A stretch of 64,000 bases of DNA from Desemzia incerta (GTDB taxonomy: Bacteria; Bacillota; Bacilli; Lactobacillales; Carnobacteriaceae), in contig NZ_FOXW01000001.1 of the NCBI RefSeq assembly GCF_900115825.1, positions 248,001-312,000 of the forward strand, given 5' to 3'. The translations under genes and the position numbers were made by a program. Under the pieces are notes generated by a model. The model searched no databases. It worked only from the letters and a program-made list of their open reading frames with translations, and was not told the DNA's origin. Within the stretch, counting starts at the first letter, position 1; the number at the start of each line of letters is the position of its first letter. Below, piece by piece: positions 2,887-64,000 of the stretch.

Positions 2887-5640
2887 ATGGAACAAATTCA
2901 ACGAAGCACGAAAAAGAATACCTCAAAAGAAATTTTGTGGTATTCTCTTTTATTTTTGATTACAATGGCATCCATCTATGGATACTTCATGGTTAGCGGA
3001 ACTTCCTTTATATGGGAAAGTGACGGATTTACTCAACATTATTTATTGTTTAAAGATTATGTAGGCATGTGGCAAGAATTTATCCAACACCCGTCTGGCG
3101 GGTTCCAAAATTGGGATTGGACAATAGGTCTGGGCGCTGATGTGATCAGTTCTTACGGATATTATGTAGTAGGAGATCCGTTCGTTTATTTAGGGTTATT
3201 GTTTCCGCAGTCGATGATGGAGTTTGCCTTTCACTTTTTGATTGTTTTAAGAATCTACTGTATTGGTTTGGCATTTATGTTTTACGCACGTAAAATGAAT
3301 GTCAGCGGAGCAGGATTATTGGTAGGGACTTTTGTTTACACGTTCTCTCATTACGTGACACTGAATGCTACAAGGCACCCATTCTTTTTAATGCCGATGA
3401 TTTTCTTTCCGCTGCTTTGTTTAGGAGTAGAAAAAATATTGCGCAAAGAGTCTGCGTTGTTGTTCGCTGCCGTAGTGTGCGTCAGTGCCACAAGCAACTT
3501 TTACTTTTTTTATAAATTGACCGTCTTGATTTTTATTTATGCCATTTTCCGTTATTTCGAGTTGGGCATACCGCTGAAAAAAATCTGGAAGTATTTCTGG
3601 AAAGCCTTGTCTCACTATTTAATTGGAGTGTGTATGTCAGCAGTGGTATTGTTTCCTGTGATCTGGGGATTTCTACAATCTTCCAGAGAACCAGGAACGT
3701 TTGCCAGCGGAATGACAGTGTACCCATTACAGTATTACGTTAACCTTTTAGCAAATATCTTTATTTCAGAAAGTTACTTGTGGACAGTTTTGGGATTTGC
3801 CGGAATCGTGATGTTAGTGATTCCATTGTTCTTTGTTAGACGGAAAGTTTTTGGAGCTATTCCTTATATGATGGTGTTATTCTTGGTTATGCTTCTATTC
3901 CCGGCATTCGGCTCCGTTATGAATGGATTATCTGGTCCATATAATCGTTGGACATTCGTTATCCCTTTGCTGTTGGGAATAGCGGTAGCGCGGTTGTATC
4001 AGTACCGATTTGACTGGAACAAAAAAGACCGCTTAGCAATGTTTGTGGGGTGGCTGTTTTTTGGTGGGATAGCACTTGGTCAGCAAATCCTTAGCGATTT
4101 TTCATGGGCTAGGACAGTACCGGTGATAGCCGCTTTTCTAGTATGGGCATTATTAGAACTAACAGCTCGTAGGAAAGAAAAAGGCAAACTGACAAATGGT
4201 TGGGAAAAAGTTGTTTCAGCTGTTATTTTCTTGTCAGTGATCGGTAATGTGATTTTCAATGCTCAAGAATATTATTATCCTATGGGACAAAACAAAGTAG
4301 CTGCCTTACTGCCTTATGGAACAGCAAATGACCAGTATGAGCAAGTATTTGATGAAATTGAAAAAGAGATTCCTCCTGTTTCAAAAGACGACATTTTCCG
4401 TATTGGGCTTACAGCTAAAGACAATCACATCCGCAATGATATGGTTTATTTAGAACGGATGGGGATGAACTCCTATCTTTCTATCACCAATGGGTCGGTG
4501 GCGCAGTTTGCTCGTCAACTGGAACTGGGCTCGTTTCAATTGATCCAACCGGTACGAAATGGAATGGATGACCGAAGAATAGCAAATCATATGTTAGGCG
4601 TGCGGTATATCGTGACAGAGGTTTCGAATGAAAAATATTTGCCGTACGGCTACGAAGTGATTTCACGTTCTGAGGGAGAGAACGCTCATTTGATCGCAGA
4701 GACAGATCAATCTTATCCTTTTGCATATGCAAATTCTGTTGTGATGGATAACGAGGAGTTTGAAAAACTGAATCCTGTAGAAAAAGAGGAGTTTTTATCT
4801 ATAGGTTTTACTGCAGCAGCAGATGAAGCTGACATCAATCAGTTAGATCCGTTTGATTCATCACTTTCGACAAAAGAAATTGCGCACACGGTTCGCAGTG
4901 AGGACGAAAATAAACTCACTATTGAAAATGACCAAGTGCTCGTTCAAGACAGTGATGGCAAATTACTGATCGAATTAGAGGATGTAAAGGATATTCAACA
5001 GTCAGAAGTATACGTACACTTAAAAGGAATGGATTTTGAACCTAATCCAAGTAAAACGTATCATCGAGTGAATACCGGCTTTAATACTAAAGTAGCCTTT
5101 AATGGACGAACTAAAACAATTCATCAATCAGACAAGCAGAGTTTCAGTTCATACATTCATCGTAAAAAGATGTTGTTTAACTTAGGTTATCAAGCAGAAT
5201 CTGAATCTAATACCATCACGGTCCAATTTGAAAAGCCTGGAGCCTATGATTTAGAAGACATCACGATTTATGCTTTGCCGGTAGATGAAGAGAGCTACAA
5301 TGAAAAAGTAGCTGAGAAATCAGCGCATCAATTAGATGTGACGACATTTGAGAACGAATCTATAGAAGGGACGATCACTCAAGAAGAGGACGCTGTTTTA
5401 GTGACAAGCATTCCTTATTCTGTAGGGTGGTCAGCTGAGGTGAACGGGGAAGAAGTAGAGACCATAAAAGTCAATTATGGATTTATCGGGATTCCTTTAA
5501 AAGCAGGAACTTCTCAAGTAGCATTTTCTTACGAAACGCCGTTCTTAAAAATCGGCTTCATTATCACCTTGATTGGTATTGGACTGTTTACAGTTGAATA
5601 TGTTAGACATAAAAAGAAGAGTGGAAAAAAAGGCGTTTAG
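2887..5640 (+). CDS. YfhO-family membrane glycosyltransferase (GT-C type)
   Basis: A protein of about 917 residues. The first ~460 residues hold roughly a dozen membrane helices, including an early ESDGFTQHYLLFKDY segment typical of YfhO/GT-C proteins. A large extracytoplasmic domain of about 400 residues follows, then one final helix and a Lys-rich tail. In Bacillus and Listeria, YfhO-like proteins transfer the sugar from the lipid carrier to lipoteichoic or wall teichoic acid. ATG at 2887 is chosen because GGTGG at 2874-2878 fits it; TTG at 2872 is possible. A terminator follows directly. Confidence 0.85.
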   Translation: MEQIQRSTKKNTSKEILWYSLLFLITMASIYGYFMVSGTSFIWESDGFTQHYLLFKDYVGMWQEFIQHPSGGFQNWDWTIGLGADVISSYGYYVVGDPFVYLGLLFPQSMMEFAFHFLIVLRIYCIGLAFMFYARKMNVSGAGLLVGTFVYTFSHYVTLNATRHPFFLMPMIFFPLLCLGVEKILRKESALLFAAVVCVSATSNFYFFYKLTVLIFIYAIFRYFELGIPLKKIWKYFWKALSHYLIGVCMSAVVLFPVIWGFLQSSREPGTFASGMTVYPLQYYVNLLANIFISESYLWTVLGFAGIVMLVIPLFFVRRKVFGAIPYMMVLFLVMLLFPAFGSVMNGLSGPYNRWTFVIPLLLGIAVARLYQYRFDWNKKDRLAMFVGWLFFGGIALGQQILSDFSWARTVPVIAAFLVWALLELTARRKEKGKLTNGWEKVVSAVIFLSVIGNVIFNAQEYYYPMGQNKVAALLPYGTANDQYEQVFDEIEKEIPPVSKDDIFRIGLTAKDNHIRNDMVYLERMGMNSYLSITNGSVAQFARQLELGSFQLIQPVRNGMDDRRIANHMLGVRYIVTEVSNEKYLPYGYEVISRSEGENAHLIAETDQSYPFAYANSVVMDNEEFEKLNPVEKEEFLSIGFTAAADEADINQLDPFDSSLSTKEIAHTVRSEDENKLTIENDQVLVQDSDGKLLIELEDVKDIQQSEVYVHLKGMDFEPNPSKTYHRVNTGFNTKVAFNGRTKTIHQSDKQSFSSYIHRKKMLFNLGYQAESESNTITVQFEKPGAYDLEDITIYALPVDEESYNEKVAEKSAHQLDVTTFENESIEGTITQEEDAVLVTSIPYSVGWSAEVNGEEVETIKVNYGFIGIPLKAGTSQVAFSYETPFLKIGFIITLIGIGLFTVEYVRHKKKSGKKGV

Positions 5641-5673
5641 CCTCGACGTCCACTTCACGAGATCAATATTCAT

Positions 5674-5711
5674 AAAAAGAAGCAGAATCTATTAAGATTC
5701 TGCTTCTTTTT
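5674..5711. terminator. Bidirectional terminator between the yfhO-like gene and mgtC
   Basis: A 17-bp stem (AAGAAGCAGAATCT arm) with a 4-base loop has A- and T-runs on both sides, so it can end both converging units. Confidence 0.9.
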
Positions 5712-5720
5712 GCGTAGGCA

Positions 5721-6425
5721 TTATTTTTCCTTGAGCGTGCTGATGTGATGTACGTCATTGATAGCGATCACTTCATCAATTAATTGAGTCATCTCCATTT
5801 CCTCAGGTAAACCGATACTGTAATAATTTGAGTAATGAATTTCAGAGTCTTTGCTGTAATCTAAGCTATGTTCTTCACTAAAAACTTTTATATCATGATC
5901 CGAAAAATAACGGTTCAATTCATTTTGTGTTTCTTTGCCAGTGTATTTGATATTCACTAACCGAACATTAGGTGCTCCAAATAATCCTTTAATGATTCTC
6001 AGTACGATGAGAACAGCTAACGTACTGATGATAGCTAGAAAATAATACCCCATCCCTACTGCGATACCAATACCGGCGATCGCCCAAATCGAAGCGGCCG
6101 TAGTCAGACCTGAAACATTGCGCTTAGTGACAATGATCGTTCCAGCACCTAAAAAACCGATCCCGCTGACGATTTGAGCAGTTAATCGAATGAAATCAGT
6201 TGTCAATACACCTTCTAAATCAGGATTCTCAATGACCATTCTAATAATGTCATAACTGGCTTCTACTTGTACCATAGCGATGATAGCTGAGCCTACAGCA
6301 ACGAGCATGTGAGTTCTCAGACCGGCATTGTGCCCTTTAGCTTCACGTTCAAAACCAATAGCACTGCCGCAAATAATAGCCATACCAATTCGAATCAAAA
6401 TTTCTATATTGCTCAATTCATACAT
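5721..6425 (-). CDS. MgtC/SapB-family membrane protein
   Basis: A 234-residue protein with about five membrane segments in the first 150 residues and a soluble ACT-like C-terminal domain. The family features GFEREAKGHNAGLRTH and GIGFLGAGTI are present. MgtC proteins are linked to growth at low Mg2+ and, in some species, to modulation of F-type ATPase or cation transport; they are not Mg2+ transporters themselves. It stands alone. No Mg2+ riboswitch was recognised upstream. Confidence 0.85.
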   Translation of the reverse strand: MYELSNIEILIRIGMAIICGSAIGFEREAKGHNAGLRTHMLVAVGSAIIAMVQVEASYDIIRMVIENPDLEGVLTTDFIRLTAQIVSGIGFLGAGTIIVTKRNVSGLTTAASIWAIAGIGIAVGMGYYFLAIISTLAVLIVLRIIKGLFGAPNVRLVNIKYTGKETQNELNRYFSDHDIKVFSEEHSLDYSKDSEIHYSNYYSIGLPEEMEMTQLIDEVIAINDVHHISTLKEK

Positions 6426-10285: not shown

Positions 10286-10320
10286 AGGTGTTTTCCAGTT
10301 TGGTGTGAAGGCGGAAATCG

Positions 10321-10457
10321 GCCATCAGCTCCTAGAAACAACTGCTCATGGCTGAAAAATAATTTAAAAAGGTCATGAGGACGATTTAGTACCGTCTCAT
10401 GGCTGAACAATCATTTTTTTCGGTCATGACGCATCATATTTACTGGTTCATGGCTGA
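10321..10457. repeat. Tandem hairpin array A: three 51-bp units, GCCATGAG/CTCATGGC family
   Basis: TCATGGCTGA recurs at 10346, 10397 and 10448, exactly 51 bases apart. Each copy is the right arm of an imperfect hairpin whose left arm is GGCCATCAG (10320), GGTCATGAGGACG (10371) or GGTCATGAC (10422). The units sit between the fruA terminator and the chromate transporter genes, separated by AT-rich linkers. No open frame runs through. The same arms recur at 34858-34995. Confidence 0.8.
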
Positions 10458-10474
10458 TAATGTGCTGATCTGCT

Positions 10475-11041
10475 TTAAAGAATAACGTAATAGATCAAGA
10501 TTCCGGCGAAACCTGAAAGGATCATAACGTGAATCGGACCAAGCTTGGTTTTGCGCAAAATGGCCAAACCGATACTAAACAGGATTACTGAGATCCAGTT
10601 TAAGTCGCTGAAAGCAATAGGGAAGCTTTCTGCACCAAACATAGCCGTCAAGAAAATCGTCAATCCAGCAGAAGCAATCAGTGCCACTACAGCTGGACGC
10701 AACCCTTGAAGGATACCATCCATAAGAGGGATTCCTTTATATTTGTAATATACTGTAGCTAGTATGATCACTATGATGCAAGATGGGGCGATACATCCAA
10801 GAGTAGCAACAATTGAACCTGGAAGTCCGGCCACTTTTGTACCGACAAAAGTAGAAGTATTAATGGCTATCGGACCAGGAGTCATTTGAGAAATCGTAAT
10901 GATGTCAACGAACTCTGTACTCGACAACCAATTGTTTTGGTGGATAACTTGTTCTTCGATCAAAGGCAAAGCAGCATATCCGCCGCCAAAACTGAATAAA
11001 CCAACTTGGAAGAAACTCCAAAATAATTGTAAGTAAACCAT
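10475..11041 (-). CDS. Chromate transporter, short-chain ChrA subunit (downstream gene)
   Basis: A 188-residue single CHR domain with about five membrane segments and the family motifs FSFGGGYAALPLIEEQV near the N-terminus and TPGPIAINTSTFVG near residue 55. Short ChrA proteins occur as adjacent pairs that work together, in contrast to fused ChrA of about 400 residues. It follows its partner with a gap of 3 bases. The substrate is presumed to be chromate or a related anion. Confidence 0.88.
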   Translation of the reverse strand: MVYLQLFWSFFQVGLFSFGGGYAALPLIEEQVIHQNNWLSSTEFVDIITISQMTPGPIAINTSTFVGTKVAGLPGSIVATLGCIAPSCIIVIILATVYYKYKGIPLMDGILQGLRPAVVALIASAGLTIFLTAMFGAESFPIAFSDLNWISVILFSIGLAILRKTKLGPIHVMILSGFAGILIYYVIL

Positions 11042-11044
11042 GAT

Positions 11045-11617
11045 TTATGAGTCCCCCTTTTGATTACGAGATCCGCGTAGGGACGTATAAGCACCTACAG
11101 CACCGCATATCAATAAAATAATAACGATGTTGATGTTTAATAAGATAGCGGCTATAAAAGCTAAAATCATCATGACGATGGGCAAAACTTGCTTGGCTTT
11201 AATGATTTTTGCAGCCATATCGATTACAACGCTCACAATAACGGCTGCAACTCCAGCCTGCATTCCTAAAAGGAGAGCACTGACCACTGGATTATCTCTA
11301 AAAGCTTGATAAAAATAAGAAATAATCGTAATGATGATCAGAGGAGGGAAGATAGTACCTACGACTGCTATCAAAGAACCTAAGATCCCAGCCATTCTGT
11401 ACCCCACAATAATAGAGGTGTTTACGGCTATAGGGCCGGGAGCAGATTGACCTATTGCGACCAGATCCAGCATTTCCTCTTCATCGATCCATCGCAATTC
11501 TTTAACGAACCGTTTTTGCATGAGGGGCACAATAACATAACCCCCGCCAAATGTAAAAGCACTTAATGTAAAAGTAGAAAGAAATAATGTCCAATAAAAT
11601 TTAATATCTTTTTCCAT
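11045..11617 (-). CDS. Chromate transporter, short-chain ChrA subunit (upstream gene)
   Basis: A 190-residue partner of the preceding entry, with the same CHR features (FTFGGGYVIVPLMQKRFV and SAPGPIAVNTSIIVG) and a short charged C-terminus. It is first in the two-gene unit; its AGGAGG-type site lies on the minus strand at about 11624-11630. A TATAAT-like -10 on the minus strand near 11660 may drive the pair. Confidence 0.88.
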   Translation of the reverse strand: MEKDIKFYWTLFLSTFTLSAFTFGGGYVIVPLMQKRFVKELRWIDEEEMLDLVAIGQSAPGPIAVNTSIIVGYRMAGILGSLIAVVGTIFPPLIIITIISYFYQAFRDNPVVSALLLGMQAGVAAVIVSVVIDMAAKIIKAKQVLPIVMMILAFIAAILLNINIVIILLICGAVGAYTSLRGSRNQKGDS

Positions 11618-14259: not shown

Positions 14260-14277
14260 GATGGAGCAAAAGGAAAA

Positions 14278-14346
14278 TCTAATATAATTTAAGCGATATG
14301 GGCTTTGAAGTTTCTACTGAACACCGTAAAAGGTTCAACTATTAGA
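14278..14346 (+). promoter_or_regulatory. Purine riboswitch (guanine/hypoxanthine class)
   Basis: The aptamer shows P1 (TCTAATA with TATTAGA), the L2 loop GATATGG, the joining strand AGTTTCTAC, the L3 loop ACCGTAAAA, and the J3/1 strand AACTAT. The residue equivalent to position 74 is C, which selects guanine or hypoxanthine rather than adenine. A hairpin at 14366-14391 (ATCAAGCTG arms) followed by GTTTTAATT is a possible expression-platform terminator. It lies about 200 bases before a hypoxanthine/guanine-type permease, a classic target. Confidence 0.92.
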
Positions 14347-14551
14347 GAAATAAATAGAGCGTGTGATCAAGCTGATGATATGCAGCTTGATGTTTTAATT
14401 GTGGATCAGTTTTATGGTTCTTATTGTTTTTTTATTTTTTTCCACAAAGACACCAGTGTTTCTTTAAAGAGACTTTATGACCCTTTTTCTTACTTTATAA
14501 AAGAGCGAATACTTCTTTTGTAAACTATAAAAAAGGCAGGGTACTTATTCA

Positions 14552-34817: not shown

Positions 34818-34857
34818 CTGCAAAAACGTATTTTTAACCTTAGCAGATGAGTTTATC

Positions 34858-34995
34858 GGCCGTCAGCATCCCTGCATGGTGCTTCATGGAAGTAATTTCT
34901 TGATAACTCAGCCATGAGCGACAATTCAGACCGACTCATGGCGGAAAGTGAACAGGAATTCAGCCATAAGGATCCACTTTCAGTCCTTCATGGCC
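34858..34995. repeat. Tandem hairpin array B: three 52-bp units, GCCATGAG/CTCATGGC family
   Basis: Left arms GCCGTCAG, GCCATGAG and GCCATAAG start at 34859, 34911 and 34963; right-arm TCATGG starts at 34884, 34936 and 34988. Every step is exactly 52 bases. The middle unit is a perfect 8-bp stem. The array lies between the pyr attenuator and the pyrF ribosome site, so it becomes part of the mRNA leader when the attenuator is read through. It shares arms with array A. Confidence 0.8.
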
Positions 34996-35063
34996 AATAA
35001 TTTTATTTTTCAAGCATTCAAAAGAGTTTTACCAACAAATCAACTGACCATGGAGGCTAGAAC

Positions 35064-51329: not shown

Positions 51330-51554
51330 ATGCGATGAGTTGACCGGCAATCAGATGATTTATCATTTCGCTTCGGCGACATAGTGATTGCCCAAAATTA
51401 GACAGGGCACATGTGCGTAAGCACACTGCAGGATGCAGGTGTTTGGATCCCTCTGTTTTGTGGAATTCATGGAACCTATTGAATGAAAATTGAATACTGT
51501 CGAAAAAGCTGCAAATGGTCCTTCTTAGGAAGGTATCATTTGCAGCCTTTTTTT
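51330..51554 (+). ncRNA. Structured non-coding RNA, family not recognised
   Basis: Between a promoter and a strong terminator lies about 220 bases with dense secondary structure: GGCAATCA/TGATTGCC (51346-51392) capped by TCGC-TTCG-GCGA; an outer helix CAAAA..GACAGGG with CCCTCTGTTTTG (51393-51460); inside it GTGC-GTAA-GCAC and ACACTGCA/TGCAGGTGT. No open frame with a ribosome site is seen. It ends before a minus-strand gene, so it is free-standing, not a leader. Size recalls 6S RNA, but I could not find the closing end helix expected for 6S. Confidence 0.65.
51508..51554. terminator. Shared terminator of the structured RNA and the GNAT gene
   Basis: GCTGCAAATG pairs with CATTTGCAGC, with CCTTC/GAAGG above; T7 follows on the plus strand and T5 on the minus strand. 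Confidence 0.92.
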
Positions 51555-62555: not shown

Positions 62556-63533
62556 ATGACACATCGTTTGAAAAAACTTGGAATAAAAACAGTAATGGTT
62601 ACAGGATTGGTGGGCGGCTTCATTATTAGTCCGCTTACAGCAAATGCAGCTGAAGACGGAATAGACACAACAGTAGTGAATGAAAAATGGGGAAAGCCAA
62701 CATTCGTTTATGGCGGTGGATTATCTGATACAGAAGTAGAGGAAACTGAAGAATTGATCGGCATCGAAAACCCTGAAAATGTCGTCAGCGTAAATGTCAC
62801 TGGTGACGAATTAGTCAAATACTTAGGAGCCGGTTCTGGGAACACTTCTAGTCTGATTTCATCGGTATTGGTAGAAAAAGAAGATGACGGACATGGAGTA
62901 GTTGTAGACATCAAAACGCCGGAAAACATCACACAAATTACTCAAGAGCAATATGCAAATGCTGCCATCACAGCTGGTGTTGCAGACGCAACGATCGAAG
63001 TAGCCAGCATCCGTCCGGCAACAGGTGAAAGTGCCTTAACCGGTATTTATAAAGCTTTTGATGTCAACGGAGAAGATCTGGATCAAGATCGAATGGAAGT
63101 AGCTCAAGACGAGTTGGAAACGACTAATGATATCGCTCAAGAAAACGCGGATAATGGAGAGTTTGATCCATCTAAATTAGACCAGGCCATTATTGAGATC
63201 AAACAATCGTTAGCAGAGTTGAAAGAGCAGCAAGGTGAATTGGCCACTAAAGAAGATATTGAACGTATCATCAATGAAGCTTTAGCAAACAATAACCTGG
63301 AAAATGTTGTGACCCAAGAACAGATCGATCGTTTGATGAGTTTGTTTGAAAATTATCAACAAACAGCGGCTATTGATTCTGAAGCTGTAAAAGAACAATT
63401 GAACAACTTATCTGAAGTTGTCCAATCAAAATTCGGCGACTTCATCGATAGCGCAGAATCTAGCGGGCTATTTGATAAAATCGGTAACTTCTTCAAGCAA
63501 GTGTGGGAAGCTATCACAGGATTATTTAATTAA
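62556..63533 (+). CDS. DUF1002-family exported protein
   Basis: A 325-residue protein with a signal peptide (basic MTHRLKK, hydrophobic core, cleavage after TANA near residue 31). The DUF1002 region carries YGGGLSDTEVEET and VTGDELVKYLG. A coiled-coil-like Glu/Gln-rich stretch (about 195-240) and an amphipathic C-terminus follow. The ribosome site is AAGGAGG. YpuA of Bacillus belongs here; its role is in the envelope but not defined. Confidence 0.85.
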   Translation: MTHRLKKLGIKTVMVTGLVGGFIISPLTANAAEDGIDTTVVNEKWGKPTFVYGGGLSDTEVEETEELIGIENPENVVSVNVTGDELVKYLGAGSGNTSSLISSVLVEKEDDGHGVVVDIKTPENITQITQEQYANAAITAGVADATIEVASIRPATGESALTGIYKAFDVNGEDLDQDRMEVAQDELETTNDIAQENADNGEFDPSKLDQAIIEIKQSLAELKEQQGELATKEDIERIINEALANNNLENVVTQEQIDRLMSLFENYQQTAAIDSEAVKEQLNNLSEVVQSKFGDFIDSAESSGLFDKIGNFFKQVWEAITGLFN

Positions 63534-63541
63534 ATGTAAAT

Positions 63542-63583
63542 AAAACAGAGACTGACAAGAGACATTTGTTAGTCTCTGTTTTT
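63542..63583 (+). terminator. Terminator after the DUF1002 gene
   Basis: AAAACAGAGACT pairs with AGTCTCTGTTTT across a 17-base loop, with T6. Confidence 0.88.
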
Positions 63584-63595
63584 TAGTTTGAGGGT

Positions 63596-63690
63596 TATTA
63601 GTCAAGTTGCACTTATTAAAATGCTCACTTGACTAATAGAGTGCTGCTATTGATCAAGTGGACTAGAAAAATCAGTCACTTGATTAATAG
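63596..63690. repeat. Tandem hairpin array C: two ~51-bp units with a different arm sequence
   Basis: Unit 1 pairs TATTAGTCAAGT (63596-63607) with ACTTGACTAATA (63627-63638). Unit 2 pairs CTATTGATCAAGTG (63647-63660) with CACTTGATTAATAG (63677-63690), one mismatch. The right-arm ACTTG starts at 63627 and 63678, a 51-base step; the left arms are 52 apart. The array lies between the terminators of two converging genes. Period and layout match arrays A and B although the arm sequence does not. Confidence 0.8.
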
Positions 63691-63724
63691 GACCAAATAT
63701 ACCCGTACGCTCATCAGCCAGCAC

Positions 63725-63764
63725 AAAAAAGGAAAGGGACATTTTCTGTCTCTTTCCTTTTTTG
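63725..63764. terminator. Bidirectional terminator before the flavin reductase gene
   Basis: AAAAAAGGAAAGGGACA pairs with TGTCTCTTTCCTTTTTT; runs at both ends suit either strand. Confidence 0.88.
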
Positions 63765-63780
63765 TTACTTAAGTAAATGA

Positions 63781-64000
63781 TTATAGACTAACATCGATTT
63801 TAATGAAGTTTTTGAAACGACCTACGATAGCATCGATAAATTGAACCGTCAATTCATCTGTTAATGTACCGTCTTCGTCAAATTTTTCGTGAACAGAGCC
63901 TACGAATACATCATTACCGCCAGCTGCAGGCATAACGTAAGCAGCAACGCCCAATGTATCTAAGATATCGCGTAAGTGGATTTGTGCTTTAACTGTTCCT
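63781..64000 (-). CDS. NADPH-dependent FMN reductase-like protein (partial, C-terminus)
   Basis: The frame enters from the right edge and ends with TAA at 63781-63783, giving 72 residues. The HLRDILDTLGV, YVMPAAGGNDVFVG and late helical segment ending KIDVSL resemble the end of flavodoxin-fold NAD(P)H:FMN oxidoreductases (azoreductase/chromate reductase type). The cofactor-binding N-terminus is outside the window. Confidence 0.65.
   Translation of the reverse strand, partial: GTVKAQIHLRDILDTLGVAAYVMPAAGGNDVFVGSVHEKFDEDGTLTDELTVQFIDAIVGRFKNFIKIDVSL

Follow-up and report, generated by a model that had tools for sequence, protein, structure and literature searches.

Unrelated families of intergenic inverted repeats share a 51–52 bp spacing in Desemzia incerta

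Introduction

Noc and MatP binding sites are single short palindromes, conserved across species, that lie dispersed within a confined part of the chromosome. Interspersed bacterial repeats, in turn, are usually grouped by the sequence that they have in common. Here we describe arrays of short inverted words in the genome of Desemzia incerta in which unrelated words share one distance, so that selection seems to act on the distance. The arrays resemble REP doublets and REPINs, as these appear in the cited portions of Bertels and Rainey (PMC3116915), in having short conserved inverted words that flank a spacer of constant length and lower conservation, in being intergenic, and in occurring singly or clustered in several families per genome. 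They differ in that they occur without a Y1/RAYT transposase, have a single 51–52 bp spacing across families where REP doublet spacing is family-specific (71 and 110 bp, same source), usually comprise three units, and, in the two families that we call T and G, have arms that do not covary. With BIMEs and GTAG/CGTC-tagged palindromic repeats they share alternating orientation and a location in convergent and co-directional gaps; the tagged repeats, as far as the cited sections of PMC3733652 describe them, are themselves palindromes whose dimer distances vary, mostly between 20 and 100 bp, whereas the single arms here are not palindromic and their distances are fixed. The pneumococcal BOX, RUP and SPRITE elements, small interspersed repeats of a relative that are likewise enriched in convergent gaps, are presented in the cited part of PMC3049150 as modular or MITE-like and conserved in sequence throughout (BOX, 67–637 bp), in contrast to the arrays here, which keep arms and distances alone. 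Keyword searching of the literature returned no paper on such arrays.

The focal array and its surroundings

The window, the whole stretch of DNA that was analysed, comprises 64,000 nt of the 2.33-Mb, 19-contig D. incerta genome (C6:248001-312000). Near its end, at 63595-63690, CTATTRRTCAAGTG occurs as two inverted pairs, the units of the T family, between two converging genes:

62556..63533, + strand: flanking gene, DUF1002 family (PF06207)
63542..63582: terminator-like hairpin with T-run, separating the focal array from the DUF1002 gene
63595..63639, + strand: T unit 1, with left arm 63595-63608 (+), loop of 17 nt, right arm 63626-63639 (−)
63640-63646: linker between T units 1 and 2, 7 nt
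63647..63690, + strand: T unit 2, with left arm 63647-63660 (+), loop of 16 nt, right arm 63677-63690 (−)
63723..63765: terminator-like hairpin on the other flank of the focal array, serving the converging gene
63781..64000, − strand: converging gene, NADPH-dependent FMN reductase family (PF03358), 3′ part, continuing beyond the window end

The preliminary description had reported two inverted pairs stepping by 51–52 bases, and the coordinates confirm this, with left arms 52 bp apart and right arms 51 bp apart because the second loop has 16 rather than 17 nt. It had also equated this spacing with that of the window's GCCATGAG arrays, which belong to the G family, and both of these do run at 51–52 bp:

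10319..10458, + strand: G array of three units (six arms) with steps of 26, 25, 26, 25 and 26, in a convergent gap
34857..34996, + strand: three-unit G array in a divergent gap, with decay of the first right arm

Two of the three window arrays, the focal one and that at 10319, are therefore in convergent gaps, as had been stated. Our scan for inverted pairs that recur in the window, with arms of 10 bp and up to one mismatch, had the focal array as its sole result and overlooked both GCCATGAG arrays, which are more degenerate; three first-order shuffles of the window gave no array. The alternating orientation of the arms led us to reject a CRISPR array, in which direct repeats run one way between unique spacers. 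An Rfam search returned three matches within the window and none at its three arrays. One match, to Ref68 / Lacto-3 Enterococcus sRNA, is at 51331-51468, and a purine riboswitch lies at 14260-14361. Adjoining the first G array, on the minus strand at 10475-11617, are two neighbouring short chromate-transporter half genes. In the plasmid collection the focal region was matched solely via its terminator. The DUF1002 gene has 85% identity in the congener (G001) and is also present in Desemzia sp. RIT 804.

Several arm families with one period

Searching the genome for T arms, each allowed up to one mismatch, and then reading 19 stretches, a procedure that poorer-armed arrays would escape, gave 13 arrays with 27 units (four single, four double and five triple arrays). 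Unit-to-unit spacing was 52 bp in 14 of 14 cases and the loop measured 17 nt in 26 of the 27 units, the second focal unit being the exception. A pattern of two arms with the gap between them has 18 occurrences per strand in the genome, and its reversed control has none. Nine more single arms from the genome-wide arm search lack a partner and look like chance, since the reversed pattern has 11 matches. GA is found in the left arm of 10 of 26 units versus the right arm of 1 of 26, and in the T arrays on C6, C9 and C15 GA-left always runs along the contig + strand. C6 has + as its leading strand, C9 and C15 have −, so the polarity does not track replication and we rejected a replication-oriented one. 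The exact T pattern is absent from the congener. The T pattern had no match in the genome_contigs and viral_contigs collections either, where records close to this genome may be absent.

G arrays consist of CGGCCATGAG-type arms in alternating orientation every 25–26 bp. We listed 29 of them, most with three units, spaced 51 or 52 bp; a stricter count gave 33 clusters, with three units in 23, two in 4 and one in 6. Successive units are 52 bp apart 36 times, 51 bp 14 times, and 103 and 102 bp once each, while the arm step is 26 bp inside units (74 times) and 26 (39 times) or 25 bp (12 times) over linkers. The loop centre is AT-rich, as are the bases immediately outside the arms. Searched with an exact pattern, the remaining 17 genomes of the family have no G. 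On C15, some of the arrays are embedded in longer tandem duplications of about 230–270 bp: three-unit arrays are duplicated head-to-tail at 4952-5893 and 15286-15882 of L101 (C15:80000-99999) and at 3497-4128 of L102 (C15:105000-124999), with lengths of about 267, 228 and 248 bp.

Two further families, K and X, emerged unsought from a scan for periods of 30–120 bp. In K (GGNACGCAAA / TTTGCGTNCC) steps of 15 and 36 bp add up to 51; a typical array has six arms with an unpaired half at both ends, and the K hairpins carry A and T tracts. We found K at 19 and 46 distinct places in two Desemzia genomes and its reversed pattern at none; among the 60 places from both species entered in the spacing count, all 23 close pairs were 51 bp apart, and the five omitted places contribute four further pairs, also at 51 bp. 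X (CTACTT / AAGTAG, 52 bp) forms one long tandem array per Desemzia species, with differing arms, and the congener has an additional GACAAGTCAG type at 52 bp. G, T and K arrays lie together inside 3.5 kb at C15:2796-6293 (L100), with UvdE-, VIT- and HAD-family genes between them.

The preliminary description had called for a genome scan of the period and a comparison with shuffled sequence. We observed no broad spread of periods in Desemzia. In the 30–120 bp scan, whose sample was 21 own stretches picked around T and G arms plus 20 sequences (400 kb) of relatives, every one of the 27 clusters had a period of 51–52 bp or double that, and three shuffles of the own set (464 kb) contained none. 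With periods of 30–130 bp, 4 of 5 clusters on 400 kb of the congener's contig C12 were at 51–52 bp, the fifth being AT-rich with a period of 111; in 400 kb of another genus of the same family (g3), a set partly selected around an orthologous gene, 6 of 10 were at 51, 52 or 102 bp and the rest at 121, 123, 58 and 110; more distant relatives (660 kb) had 0 of 5 at 51–52 bp. The same scan of own C8, C10, C12 and C14 with three stretches of C15 and C17 (400 kb) gave no cluster, and shuffles gave one to two per three rounds. A coincidence of periods, conceivable from a window holding three arrays only, is refuted by the Desemzia counts: T, G and K all keep 51–52 bp genome-wide and the 464 kb of shuffled sequence had no cluster, leaving chance a negligible probability. 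The data support a single 51–52 bp architecture with interchangeable, unrelated arm families.

Arm covariation and loop divergence

An inverted repeat seen in the sequence is not of necessity a hairpin, and covariation between the arms can discriminate. In 57 non-redundant G units, none of the ten arm positions departed from the base pairing expected after shuffling (lowest p 0.19), and the loop bases adjoining the arms pair more rarely than expected. In 26 T units the lone freely varying position shows six A-C mismatches and is paired in 15 units versus 13.8 expected. Pairing over the linkers gave no general signal, with 1 of 17 positions in T at p 0.042. The lack of covariation between left and right arms leaves the hairpin unsupported as the form in which T and G act. 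In K, two outer positions covary (p 0.012 and <0.0002) and two inner variable ones do not, and a second set that takes in chance matches has the same tendency; the X arms differ between the two Desemzia species by paired changes, as judged by eye. In these two families, then, pairing matters. Mean pairwise arm identity is 0.89/0.91 in T and 0.74/0.77 in G, and mean loop identity is 0.33 and 0.30 versus 0.26 and 0.25 after shuffling, a slight excess that comes from base preferences at the loop edges and centre. Of the earlier proposal of a shared architecture with interchangeable arms and several subfamilies, this much stands, for T, G, K and more types in relatives; its hairpin form is not supported for T and G and is mixed for K. 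The arms of T and G have the look of half-sites for a protein on duplex DNA, at a fixed distance and free to vary independently as in a protein-operator array, and K seems to combine sites with a stem.

Many arrays are near gene 3′ ends, where they could act as RNA hairpins in untranslated regions, that is, as terminators, stabilisers or protein-binding stems. The A/T tracts and outer covariation of K would suit this and recall the bidirectional terminators of low-GC Firmicutes in the cited part of PMC1590033. We consider it an improbable account of the arrays as a whole: in T and G the two arms change independently of each other, linkers are exact to the base, the focal array lies between two terminator-like hairpins, and no window array has an Rfam match. 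G arrays, moreover, carry T on the left flank and A on the right, the opposite of a terminator, and we rejected an intrinsic terminator for T and G, which are without a GC-rich stem followed by a T-run.

What we observe directly is fixed spacing, conserved arms that in T and G vary independently, near-random loops, intergenic siting and no Y1 transposase. Our best explanation, in which we place about even confidence, is that the arrays may be helically phased dyads for sequence-specific DNA-binding proteins, with one specificity per family. Each array would be a row of inverted half-site pairs, and a dimer of the putative reader, or a pair of subunits at a fixed distance, would touch both arms of a unit over the 16–17 bp loop. 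Adjacent complexes would pack side by side every 51–52 bp, about five helical turns, and so be in phase. The families, including those of relatives, would differ in their arms where the reader or a set of paralogues had shifted specificity with the packing distance retained. A protein row in helical register is favoured because distances stay fixed within units as well as from one unit to the next, which separate RNA stems do not explain; the base-exact linkers in particular count for phased dyads since separate RNA hairpins would not need them. Protein binding, the dimeric state and an origin of the ruler in helical phasing are all presumed here.

Genomic placement

Every classified array is intergenic. 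Convergent gaps hold 8 of 13 T arrays, 5 of 19 placed G arrays (22 without local duplicates, 3 at stretch ends being set aside) and 2 of 5 K arrays, compared with 30 of 201 gaps of at least 100 bp; divergent gaps hold 3 of 37 arrays compared with 59 of those 201. The convergent preference is clear for T and weak for G. Together with the length of about 150 bp per three units and the AT-rich phased patches, the enrichment of T in convergent gaps could also point to elements of DNA topology, either cruciforms extruded under supercoiling or wrapping sites of the gyrase type, such as have been proposed for E. coli BIMEs. Extrusion requires paired arms, though, and T and G are without paired change; nor is gyrase expected to read unrelated words of 10–14 bp. 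We hold a topological role to be quite unlikely. Ten flanking proteins belong to unrelated families, with no common functional theme found among these neighbours.

Paired-arm T and G arrays are found on C5, C6, C9, C15, C16 and C17 (1.28 Mb) and not on C8, C10, C12 and C14 (0.96 Mb). C15 carries dnaA and C17 rplB, and GC skew turns from + to − inside C10, so the terminus is probably there. For 13 T and 17 G loci this partition, drawn post hoc and with an inferred order of contigs, has a chance value of 5e-8. The origin-side confinement has an exception in one K hairpin, on C10, and the ATGGAAGAGTG type of genome G017 in g3 lends it no support, with three places only, one near the chromosome middle. 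We suggest that the phased rows may organise or insulate the chromosome between genes in its origin-side part. The regional confinement is like that of Noc and MatP site sets, and the array arms do not look like the Noc site. D. incerta has a Noc gene, as do others among the 10 of 20 genomes, array-bearing or not, with matches over the cut-off; we rejected Noc as the array reader, the gene being present in array-free genomes too and no link to the arms being found.

Arrays in relatives and the question of mobility

Seven of nine orthologous intergenic positions were comparable in the congener, and at these seven there is other sequence and no array. Intergenic DNA of the congener is not alignable base by base, and insertion points and target duplications are therefore unreadable. 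This absence, the many dispersed intergenic copies, their enrichment in convergent gaps (clear-cut placement of this kind is typical of parasitic repeats in the cited part of PMC3049150) and the several families per genome, as in REPs, would all suit mobile miniature elements (REPIN/BIME or MITE type) that a transposase disseminates, taking the arms as its recognition ends, and that are tolerated in intergenic gaps, with arrays built by repeated insertion. As in REPINs, a conserved word stands in inverted pairs around a spacer of constant length; a hairpin whose ends are kept paired is not found in T and G, and K is mixed. The Y1 transposase family of the RAYT superfamily (PF01797) had no match in D. 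incerta, the congener or six g3 genomes, in a search that detected it in 9 of the 30 relatives and in 5 of the 14 controls. Copies also share arms and lengths but hardly loops, unlike recent copies of a mobile unit, and REP spacing differs by family in the portions of PMC3116915 cited above, whereas unrelated families share one here. We therefore regard mobile elements as an unlikely source of the arrays, if less so than RNA hairpins.

A broader version of the phased-dyad reading, which we offer tentatively and think rather doubtful, is a class of intergenic elements defined by the ruler: rows of dyads at 51–52 bp, usually three, whose words would be swapped in evolution alongside fast-changing paralogous DNA-binding proteins and which would mark the origin-side chromosome in Desemzia. 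Should proteins occupy the rows, they would form a fast-changing, species-specific layer of chromosome marking in bacteria.

In g3, AACTCA/TGAGTT arrays with a period of 51 bp occur in three of the six genomes examined (G003, G013 and G017), immediately behind the DUF1002 gene that also precedes the focal array, and CACTC-type pairs at 52 bp occur in G017 and G010. Neither the X nor the g3 arrays were matched in the plasmid collection. A P-type pattern with an 11-nt loop gave no match in two genomes, the pattern being ill drawn and the array itself present there. In G013, tandem repeats with periods of 121 (L128:15151) and 123 bp (L129:16013) lie close to the 51-bp arrays.
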